Shown piece after piece: positions 35,137 through 38,043 of a stretch of DNA of 64,000 bases (its first letter is position 1; each line of letters opens with the position of its first letter). Where the stretch lies: assembly GCF_008274695.1 (NCBI RefSeq), contig NZ_VTOU01000003.1, forward strand, positions 558,001-622,000. Reading direction: 5' to 3'. Made by a program: the position numbers and the translations under genes. The stretch is from Sphingomonas montanisoli (lineage in GTDB: Bacteria > Pseudomonadota > Alphaproteobacteria > Sphingomonadales > Sphingomonadaceae). The notes beneath the pieces were generated by a model, which saw nothing but the letters and a program-made list of their open reading frames with translations, had not been told where the DNA came from and did not search any database.

Positions 35137-38043
35137 ATGGATGAGATAATGGCCGAAGCACCCGACTACCGCGACACCGTCTTCCTGCCGACGACCGACT
35201 TTCCGATGAAAGCGGGCCTGGCGCAGAAGGAGCCGGCGATTCTGGCGAAGTGGGCGGCCGACGATCTCTACGGCCAGTTGCGCAAGGTCCGCGCGGGCCG
35301 CGAGCGTTTCATCCTGCATGACGGCCCGCCCTACGCCAATGGCGACATCCACATGGGCCATGCGATGAACAAGGTGCTGAAGGACATCATCGTCCGCAGC
35401 CAGACGCTCGCCGGCAAGGACGCGCCCTATGTTCCCGGCTGGGACTGCCACGGCCTGCCGATCGAGTGGAAGGTCGAGGAAGCCTATCGCGCCAAGAAGC
35501 TGAACAAGGATGAGGTCGATCCCGTCCAGTTCCGCGCCGAATGTCGCGCCTATGCCGAAAAGTGGGTCGGCATCCAGCGCGCGCAGTTCGAGCGGCTGGG
35601 CGTCATGGGCGATTGGGACGATCCCTATCTGACCATGAAATATGAGGCCGAGGCGGCGATCGTCGGCGAGCTGCTCAAGTTCGCCGAGACCGGCCAGCTC
35701 TATCGCGGCGCGAAGCCGGTGATGTGGTCCCCGGTCGAAAAGACCGCGCTGGCCGAAGCCGAAGTCGAATATGAGGACATCACGTCCACGCAGATCGACG
35801 TGGCGTTCGAGATCGTCGAGAGCGCGATCCCCGGACTGGTCGGCGCCTATGCGGTGATCTGGACGACGACACCGTGGACGATCCCGGTCAATCAGGCTTT
35901 GGCTTACGGGCCGGAGGTTCGATACGTCGTTCTCGAAGCAGACCGAAATTACCTGATTGCTGACGCTCTGGCAGAAAGCTTCATCGCACGAAGCGGTATC
36001 GAGGTAACGAAGCGTTGGGACTGGCTCCCGGGTGAAAGCCTCGCCGGCACGATAGCGCAGCACCCGATGCACAAGCTCGGCGGTTTCTTTGCGAAGCCGC
36101 GGCCGCTGCTCGCGGGCGATTTCGTGACGACCGATGCGGGCACCGGCCTGGTCCACATGGCACCCGATCATGGCGAGGACGACTTCTTCCTCTGCAAGGC
36201 GAACGGCATCGATCCGGTGTTCGCGGTCGAGGGCGACGGGAAATATCGCGCAGACTGGGCGTGGATGGGCGGACAGGGTTCGGTCATCAACCCCAAGTTC
36301 AACGGCCCCGAAGGCCCGATCTGCACCGACCTGCGCGAAGCGGGCGCGCTGCTGGCCGCGAGCGCGGACTTCAAGCACAGCTATCCGCATAGCTGGCGCT
36401 CGAAGGCCAAGGTGATCTTCCGCTGCACGCCGCAGTGGTTCATCCCGATGGATAAGCCCATCGCGGGAGGCCATGTCTCGACTTCGCTCGACATGAGCGG
36501 TGGTGGGGGTGATGGCGCCCAACAAACCCCGCTCATGTCGAGCGAAGTCGAGACATCTTCGTCGAACGGCCCCACCCTGCGCGGCATCGCGCTCGACGCG
36601 ATCGCCAACACCCGCTGGGTGCCCGAAAAGGCCGAGAACCGCATCACCGCGATGGTCGCGGGCCGCCCCGACTGGGTGATCAGCCGCCAGCGCGCCTGGG
36701 GCGTGCCGATCGCGCTCTATGTCGACAAGGACGGCAATTATCTGCGCGACCCCGCCGTCAACGCGCGCATCACCGCCGCGTTCGAACAGGGCGGTGCCGA
36801 TGCGTGGTTCACCGCCGATCATCAGGCGCTGCTCGGCCCCGATTATGACGCGGCCGACTATGAGCCGGTGAACGACATTCTCGACGTGTGGTTCGATTCG
36901 GGCTGCACCCATGTGTTCACGGTCGAGGCTCGCTATGGCGCGGGCGTTCGCGCCAACCTGTATCTCGAAGGATCGGACCAGCATCGCGGCTGGTTCCAGT
37001 CGTCGCTGCTCGAAAGCTGCGGCACGCGCGGGCGGGCACCCTATGACGCGGTGCTGACGCATGGCTTCGCGCTGGACGGCAAGGGCAAGAAGATGTCCAA
37101 GTCCGAAGGCAATGTCGTCGATCCGCTCAAGGTGATCGGCGAAAGCGGTGCGGACATCCTGCGCCTGTGGGTCGCCAGCACCGATTATTTCGAGGACGTC
37201 CGCATCTCGAAGGAAGTGCTCGCCGGCACGTCCGACGCCTATCGCAAGCTGCGCAACACATTCCGTTACCTGCTGGGCGCTCTGGATGGTTTTTCGGAGA
37301 CCGAGAAGGTCGCGCCGGGCGAGATGCCCGAGCTGGAACGCTACGTCCTCAACCTGCTCGCCGAGCTCGACACCGAGCTGAAGGCGGCGACGGCGGCCTA
37401 TGAGTTCAACCGCTATGCGCGCGCGCTGACCGACTTCGCGAACAACGATCTGTCGGCCTTCTTCTTCGATATCCGCAAGGACGTGCTCTATTGCGACGCG
37501 CCGGACAGCCCGACGCGCCGCGCCTATCGCACGGTGCTCGACACGCTGTTCCACGCGCTCGTCCGCTATGCCGCGCCGATCCTGTGCTTCACCTCCGAAG
37601 AGGTGTGGGGCACGCGCTATCCCGAGGGTGGATCGGTCCACCTGCTGGAGTGGCCCGAGGTCGATGCCGGCTGGACGGACGACGATCTTCGCATGAAGTG
37701 GGCGCTGATCCGCCAGCACCGCCTACGGCTCACCGGCGAGATCGAGCCGCTGCGCCGCGACAAGATCGTGCGATCGAGCCTGGAGGCCGATGCGACCGCG
37801 ATCATCTATGACCCCGCGCAGGCGAGCCTGCTCCGATCGATCGACTTTGCCGAGATCGGCATCGTCGCGAAGGTGGATATCGTCGACGGCGATGCCGCGG
37901 TTGAAGCGCCTGCGGGCGAGAGCGTCCGCTTCGAAGTCGCCAAGACCGAGTATGAAAAGTGCGGCCGCTGCTGGCGTCACCTGCCCGAAGTGGTCGAGGA
38001 CGGGGCGCTGTGCGCACGCTGCGAGGATGTGGTCGGCGCATGA
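35137..38043 (+). CDS. ileS: Isoleucyl-tRNA synthetase with in-frame palindromic insertion
   Basis: This 968-residue class I synthetase has the HIGH-type motif PYANGDIHMGHAMNK near 65-80, the editing domain in the middle, and GKKMSKSEGNVVDP as the KMSKS loop. The C-terminal zinc site is YEKCGRCWRHLPEV...CARCEDVV. Residues about 446-473, between CTPQWFIPMDKP and TLRGIALDAI, are encoded by an 84-bp palindromic repeat element, which keeps the frame and has no stop. Without them the length would be about 940, usual for the family. The insert is Ser/Gly-rich and probably forms a surface loop. The ATG at 35149 is an alternative start. Confidence 0.95.
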   Translation: MDEIMAEAPDYRDTVFLPTTDFPMKAGLAQKEPAILAKWAADDLYGQLRKVRAGRERFILHDGPPYANGDIHMGHAMNKVLKDIIVRSQTLAGKDAPYVPGWDCHGLPIEWKVEEAYRAKKLNKDEVDPVQFRAECRAYAEKWVGIQRAQFERLGVMGDWDDPYLTMKYEAEAAIVGELLKFAETGQLYRGAKPVMWSPVEKTALAEAEVEYEDITSTQIDVAFEIVESAIPGLVGAYAVIWTTTPWTIPVNQALAYGPEVRYVVLEADRNYLIADALAESFIARSGIEVTKRWDWLPGESLAGTIAQHPMHKLGGFFAKPRPLLAGDFVTTDAGTGLVHMAPDHGEDDFFLCKANGIDPVFAVEGDGKYRADWAWMGGQGSVINPKFNGPEGPICTDLREAGALLAASADFKHSYPHSWRSKAKVIFRCTPQWFIPMDKPIAGGHVSTSLDMSGGGGDGAQQTPLMSSEVETSSSNGPTLRGIALDAIANTRWVPEKAENRITAMVAGRPDWVISRQRAWGVPIALYVDKDGNYLRDPAVNARITAAFEQGGADAWFTADHQALLGPDYDAADYEPVNDILDVWFDSGCTHVFTVEARYGAGVRANLYLEGSDQHRGWFQSSLLESCGTRGRAPYDAVLTHGFALDGKGKKMSKSEGNVVDPLKVIGESGADILRLWVASTDYFEDVRISKEVLAGTSDAYRKLRNTFRYLLGALDGFSETEKVAPGEMPELERYVLNLLAELDTELKAATAAYEFNRYARALTDFANNDLSAFFFDIRKDVLYCDAPDSPTRRAYRTVLDTLFHALVRYAAPILCFTSEEVWGTRYPEGGSVHLLEWPEVDAGWTDDDLRMKWALIRQHRLRLTGEIEPLRRDKIVRSSLEADATAIIYDPAQASLLRSIDFAEIGIVAKVDIVDGDAAVEAPAGESVRFEVAKTEYEKCGRCWRHLPEVVEDGALCARCEDVVGA
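36473..36556. repeat. Palindromic repeat (TGTCTCGACTTCGCTCGACA family), copy 3, inside ileS
   Basis: Perfect 28-bp arms (36473-36500 and 36529-36556) flank a 28-bp loop. Total 84 bp equals 28 codons in the ileS frame. The loop ends in AACAAACCCC, the same bases that precede the arm of copy 2 at 27881-27890. This is a coding member of an otherwise intergenic family. Confidence 0.95.

Follow-up and report, generated by a model that had tools for sequence, protein, structure and literature searches.

The ileS gene and its palindromic insert

The DNA analysed here (the window) is a stretch of 64,000 nucleotides from Sphingomonas montanisoli, and it contains the gene ileS, whose product, isoleucyl-tRNA synthetase (IleRS), has the Pfam domains tRNA-synt_1, Anticodon_1 and zf-FPG_IleRS and is 91% identical to its nearest orthologue in the genus. 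Positions 36473-36556 form an 84-bp palindrome whose 28-bp arms are perfect (100% complementary) and, as the earlier note had reported, this element lies in the ileS frame and is free of stop codons (Table 1). Folded as DNA, the 84 bp are exceptionally stable against shuffles (z = -12.6). The segment is a hairpin-capable inverted doublet of a short repeated unit, as in REP/REPIN sequences, its two units standing tail to tail; the REP-type palindromic repeat to which they belong is here named family A (unit CCGTTCGTGTCGAGCGAAGTCGAGACACG). Two trivial explanations were rejected: a spurious ORF, as the gene is full length and Pfam-supported, with high GC3 on either side; and an assembly artefact, as the same kind of loop is seen in other genera.

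Table 1. Features of ileS and copies of the family A repeat in the window.
Feature	Position	Strand	Remarks
ileS, isoleucyl-tRNA synthetase, 968 aa	35137..38043	+	ORF open across the insert, no stop
Hypervariable loop, residues 440-479	36454..36573	+	from D439 (invariant) to T480 (nearly invariant)
First REP unit (reverse half, r)	36473..36500	+	read as HVSTSLDMSG
Spacer of the tail-to-tail pair, 28 nt	36501..36528	+	
Second REP unit (forward half, R)	36529..36556	-	+ strand reading PLMSSEVET
Head-to-head family A copy	364..435	.	left out of the coding count: SPOR-domain ORF starts before the copy, domain far downstream
Head-to-head family A copy	27889..27965	.	

The RNA of 36440-36590 also folds very strongly (z = -9.1), and the hairpin could therefore act in the mRNA, by pausing, attenuation or stability control of ileS. 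We think this highly improbable: many orthologues have no strong palindrome here, no Rfam family scored above cut-off in 34000-39500, and the choice of frame and charge (discussed below) suggests that the protein level is what matters.

Family A across the genome

The 20-nt core of family A has six matches in the window, all exact and making up three inverted pairs, against none in 100 shuffles. The two pairs outside ileS, which the earlier note had also seen, are real and both head-to-head, with CCGTTCG or CCGCTCG outermost, the reverse of the ileS arrangement; the full extent of the first is slightly greater than the 368-431 originally given. In the whole genome the core has 35 + 39 matches at up to 2 mismatches (reversed control, 0), grouping into 42 places. 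Among the pairs listed for this genome, every one is head-to-head, about 75 bp long and with CCGTTCG-like ends on the outside, apart from the ileS copy and one at C9:471854, the sole other tail-to-tail pair found there, whose core spacing of 62 is the same as that of the ileS copy. The 28 nt of the first ileS unit are the same as one half of a genomic copy (in L012).

At least five of the 42 places lie in frame inside genes: ileS itself, the linker of CoaBC, a PD-(D/E)XK protein that is putatively AddB-like, an M20 peptidase and an M28 peptidase. Five is a lower bound, coming from some of the ORFs that span the 42 places. In the AddB-like and M28 genes, an open frame and GC3 are the evidence that sequence outside the Pfam domain is coding; the other spanning ORFs among those scanned had no Pfam match. 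Copies upstream of GrpE, HI0933-like, CpaD and SPOR ORFs seemed intragenic, but precede the first domain and so were left out of the count. In its many dispersed, mainly extragenic copies family A is thus like REP/REPIN families, and in its in-frame insertions into ORFs of known proteins it is like the palindromic elements of Rickettsia. The earlier note had offered, as one of two possibilities, that the element hops with a bias towards frame-preserving sites; we set this aside, as the in-frame copies in genes are explained by a filter acting after insertion.

A strict, RAYT-moved REPIN was rejected for the window genome, in which the Y1 transposase family (PF01797) had no match. Across the 14 genomes that bear family A, six have a PF01797 match (five of them over the cut-off) and eight have none. 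In a different genome (G106), 14-nt core runs with a 17-bp period occur at C1:3539205-3539341 and C1:1593285-1593332, as if single units had multiplied in tandem. The window also contains another long palindrome family, at 33991-34114 and 50104-50227 (arms of 49 and 46 nt; CCTCCCCCGCCAGGGGGAGG with a GACGGAGGGGG part), and a similar copy is found in L277 (3208-3331).

A hypervariable loop, predicted to be disordered

In an alignment of the window IleRS with the solved IleRS 8c9e, the match stops after chain residue 414 (query 437) and restarts at chain residue 421 (query 484), 8c9e having about six residues where the window protein has its hypervariable loop. The element is extra protein, as had been proposed: an in-frame copy of a repeat family, absent from 8c9e. 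In an AlphaFold model (a run with 54 sequences; mean pLDDT 89.2), pLDDT falls below 50 in two segments only, residues 1-20 and 445-476, and the insert, at 446-474, is predicted to be disordered; this fits the second possibility raised by the earlier note, that the element was tolerated in a surface loop.

We surveyed this loop at 185 loci, giving 176 distinct loops; two partial ones (L061 and L063) were dropped. The ileS search matched 213 of 219 genomes, and 90 of the 213 were read, taken by similarity to the window, so that close relatives are over-represented; genomes of the genus and 80 named loci were added. All 36 loops outside Sphingomonadales (assigned by record title) have fewer than 15 residues, and repeat-derived sequence was found in none of these 36. 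The 140 distinct Sphingomonadales loops comprise 31 short ones, 62 that are longer but hold no recognised repeat, and 47 with repeat-derived sequence, and across the survey loop length runs from fewer than 5 to more than 60 residues. Within the window's genus, the six repeat-free loops have 23-24 residues, against 38 in the window. The statement that known IleRS proteins have a short junction here therefore stands outside the order and fails inside it. Nor is there an equally long, non-palindromic loop in all orthologues, which would have made the segment ancestral: lengths vary widely, and many loops derive from other repeat families.

Several repeat types at one site

The 47 repeat-derived loops were sorted by motif into A (11 loops), A2 (5, after removal of L137, a false A2 call), B (27), D (3) and one other. 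A and A2 look related; B pools C-tract repeats, is heterogeneous and probably comprises several families; and D looks to be CGTC-type, a fit made by eye, its units (in L049 and at window position 39012) containing CGTCATCCCGG. The IleRS loop of Sphingomonadales thus carries at least three unrelated repeat types, a point that the earlier note had missed. Of 13 genomes in the window's own genus whose loop could be read, 7 have a repeat insert, and these represent three classes: A in the window genome and G006, D in G001, and B in G004, G009, G010 and G011. Some loops (L104, L191) hold two repeat types or doubled units.

Palindromes of these general kinds also lie elsewhere in the window. A CGTC-type head-to-head REP dimer (CGTCATCCCGGGCTTGACCCGGGATCCAGCT) occupies 39012-39093, directly upstream of an ORF starting at 39103, and a C-tract palindrome (CCCCTCCCTCTTAGGGAGGGG...), broadly like those seen in the ileS loop of other species, occupies 32422-32557.

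Probable turnover of the loop and the match to host repeats

On a quick tree of the flanks, with the loop excluded, the repeat classes require 11 changes for 11 rows (A), 24 for 27 (B), 5 for 5 (A2) and 3 for 3 (D), where each change may be a gain or a loss, the two being inseparable by tree parsimony; well-supported (starred) branches alone force at least 7 changes for A, 12 for B, 4 for A2 and 3 for D. The window (A) and G001 (D) are sisters in this tree (98, starred); their upstream flanks are 96% identical and the start of the downstream flank is identical, while the inserts have no visible similarity. Wholesale swaps of the loop are seen between upstream flanks of 93-96% identity (L048/L049, L052/L050 and L184/L198), and in L162/L104 the older loop is partly retained. 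The 19 loop pair alignments gave no clean empty site or footprint, the earlier loop sequence usually being lost.

In three cases the loop insert matches an abundant repeat family of its host. For the D pattern, G001 gives 100 strand matches, of which one falls inside ileS, and the window genome 4; for the B pattern, G093 gives 80, spread over about 40 places, with a pair lying next to the match in ileS; and in G215 a GAAAC variant is carried by 10 of the 12 listed head-to-head copies and by the ileS copy. In G067, by contrast, the loop has an A-like insert yet the genome has no exact core match. The B pattern misfits the ileS variant of G004 and G010, whose low counts are uninformative.

With a score of 16 or more and a gap of up to 70 as the criterion for a strong inverted repeat, 16 of the 140 loops qualify, as do other scanned portions of ileS in 6 genes. 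Counted by gene, this makes 20 of 140, whereas the genes of random stretches gave 1 of 612 (p = 1.4e-14, which takes species as independent). The ileS scan spans up to 1100 nt before and up to 600 nt after the loop region, a part of the gene; the control consists of 40 random 20-kb stretches drawn from 21 genomes (10 stretches coming from the window genome), with genes called by a simple codon-usage script, and its sole palindrome-bearing gene resembles an N-terminal extension.

Insertion is also seen beyond the loop, ileS being the richest site observed. A second palindrome region in ileS lies about 370-620 nt upstream of the loop (L095, L102, L150, L183, L214 and L230), and the CoaBC linker has an A unit in the window genome and a CGTC-type insert (by its peptide) in G011, 2 of 13 genomes of the genus. 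CoaBC of G040 carries an A dimer, as does CarA of G160, between two domains. Interdomain linkers of CarA (L291) and CoaBC (L294, L304, L316) hold REP units or dimers in frame, of more than one type.

A palindrome rate in ileS some 65-fold above that of random genes per kb, together with the wholesale loop swaps and the loops with mixed or doubled units, could mean that the loop is a hotspot at the DNA level, in which the palindrome already present forms hairpins at the replication fork, leading to deletion or template switching and to replacement by a different REP through ectopic conversion, the repeats themselves then driving turnover. However, palindromes occur also at the second ileS region (6/140), in the CoaBC linker (2/13 genus genomes; L294) and in the CarA linker (L291), and several loops in different proteins suit tolerance better than a single hot DNA site; the partly retained older loop of L162/L104 is also against it. 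We consider such a hotspot unlikely, though deserving of serious thought. Tolerance alone leaves the excess in ileS over other genes unexplained.

Reading frame and charge of the inserted peptides

None of the 176 loops contains a stop codon. A frame test was feasible for 46 repeat loops of sufficient length. The insert is open in two or more forward frames in 36 of these, and in every one of the 36 the frame in use is the least positive of the open ones (about 17 expected). Long loops free of repeats show the same preference when all three frames are compared (62/62 in the least positive), so coding sequence in these genomes has a general tendency that accounts for part of the signal. We read the choice in the repeat loops as selection because repeats arriving from elsewhere lack a coding history. 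At the second ileS site, which we take to be in the CP1 editing domain, inserts in L090, L095, L183 and L150 are read in Arg-containing frames (HSRAGGNP..DPRLRGDD and similar); the charge filter is therefore local.

Such a consistent choice of frame and charge, and the recurrence of inserts in an essential gene, would also be expected if the inserts were adaptive, with the acidic peptide tuning IleRS (for example its editing or expression) and sphingomonads repeatedly recruiting repeats as raw material. We regard this as improbable, given that repeats are absent from close relatives (L092 beside L222; L051 and L052 beside L050), that peptides of different types have no motif visible in common, and that loop length ranges so widely.

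The tail-to-tail arrangement

In 219 genomes, family A dimers counted by exact patterns (with slightly different gap ranges) are head-to-head in 282 cases and tail-to-tail in 8. Family A as a whole thus resembles CGTC-tagged REPs, in which head-to-head dimers predominate and tail-to-tail ones are rare; the ileS copy is itself tail-to-tail. All 11 family A loop inserts are tail-to-tail and, by position arithmetic, in one frame (STSL.. then SSEVE), with deviations in L104 (second half of A2 type), L191 (first half doubled) and L078 (second half degenerate).

The same rare arrangement and frame in 11 of 11 loop copies would follow if family A had inserted just once, in an ancestor within Sphingomonadales, and had since been passed down vertically, with loss or overwriting in most lineages. 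This is very improbable in our view, for the window copy retains perfect arms, which match half of an extant genomic copy exactly; L215 has the variant typical of its own genome; in L050 (G006) one half has GGGAC and the other GTGTC, a combination shared by listed copies of G002 and G003 from the same genus; and the repeat labels are scattered over the flank tree.

Insertion and a protein filter alone are insufficient to account for one arrangement and one frame in all 11 inserts. The AddB-like insert of the window genome is head-to-head, as is that in the M20 gene, and the former is also open in the favoured frame; the protein filter fails to explain the arrangement because a head-to-head insert can be open in that frame. 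Two of the 8 tail-to-tail dimers are the in-frame inserts in CarA and CoaBC, and the tail-to-tail dimer as a special coding form is a lead, although the two head-to-head coding copies of the window genome speak against exclusivity. A broader idea, which we offer tentatively and which may well prove wrong, is that IleRS of Sphingomonadales has a ‘sandbox’ loop, overwritten continually by the active palindromic family and so holding a fossil record of repeat outbreaks, and that the tail-to-tail dimer is found preferentially in proteins.

Relation to known repeat systems

Two organisms that bear on the comparison, ‘E. lithoralis’ and ‘S. alaskensis’, are presumably sphingomonads (Sphingomonadales). 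CGTC-tagged REPs of alphaproteobacteria are described, in the parts of the source available, as short palindromic units in head-to-head dimers, rarely tail-to-tail, mostly intergenic and without an associated transposase (PMC3733652). Some are reported inside ORFs, including tRNA synthetases of these two organisms; recB of two Xanthomonas carries a REP at about the same site; and some insertions are suggested to be neutral, in flexible linkers or loops (PMC3733652, same parts). Family D of our survey looks to be of this type, whereas the family A unit, judged by eye, lacks a terminal CGTC (or TGTC/CCTC) tag with an 8-9 bp stem starting in AT. Those parts give neither a multi-family loop nor a frame rule, and the main text never uses ‘isoleucyl’.

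Rickettsia palindromic elements (RPEs) are, in the portions consulted of two sources, palindromic repeats in frame in housekeeping genes, solvent-exposed, and a single gene can carry RPEs of different names from species to species (PMC3767692, PMC10969869). RPE-7 is listed in a Rickettsia IleRS; every rickettsial orthologue is reported to have an inserted sequence, and a common origin is argued, with hotspots left possible (PMC3767692, in part). The likeness to family A (in frame, palindromic, one in IleRS) is one of description, and the host order differs; also, as far as these portions go, the Sphingomonadales differ in that many close relatives have no repeat at all and the repeat types are unrelated. 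REPINs with RAYT transposases are inverted doublets with long hairpins, dispersed and mostly extragenic, in the sections available (PMC3116915); family A is alike in doublets and dispersal, but a Y1 transposase is missing from the window genome and from 8 of the 14 A-bearing genomes.

What is known, then, are the kinds of element and their ability to sit in ORFs; what we did not find in print is repeated turnover at the same site with a frame rule. In the open-licence literature no report was found of several repeat families at one loop of one enzyme. Novelty is more limited than the earlier note implied, REPs inside ORFs, tRNA synthetases included, being already described (PMC3733652, in part), as is RPE-7 in a Rickettsia IleRS (PMC3767692, in part).

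Proposed origin of the loop and its significance

We propose, and think it probable, that REP-type repeats keep landing in a disordered surface loop of IleRS and that a filter at the protein level keeps those that are in frame and neutral. In the window, a family A tail-to-tail dimer would have inserted in frame into this loop, on which there may be few sequence constraints, allowing repeated overwriting in Sphingomonadales by multiplying REP families (A, A2, B and D). New copies would arrive by transposition-like insertion and old loop sequence would go by deletion or replacement; survivors would be insertions that keep the frame with a neutral to acidic, small-residue peptide, which may be neutral for IleRS. 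The proposal draws on the repeat family, its coding position, the several types at one site, the host match in three cases and the choice of frame, as well as on the predicted disorder.

Repeat-derived peptides such as STSLDTNG/SSEVE, PAEAGIS/PASAGVT and PSPSGEG/PNPSPEGEG occur in real proteins and are not to be taken for domains, and the IleRS loop may serve as a strain-level marker. For the Sphingomonadales, one loop of an essential enzyme, filled many times, is a natural replicated experiment in which insertion supply, frame, charge and loss become statistically separable; it makes testable the movement of REP-type repeats without a Y1 transposase, movement that depends on arrangement, and the turning of selfish DNA into protein sequence.
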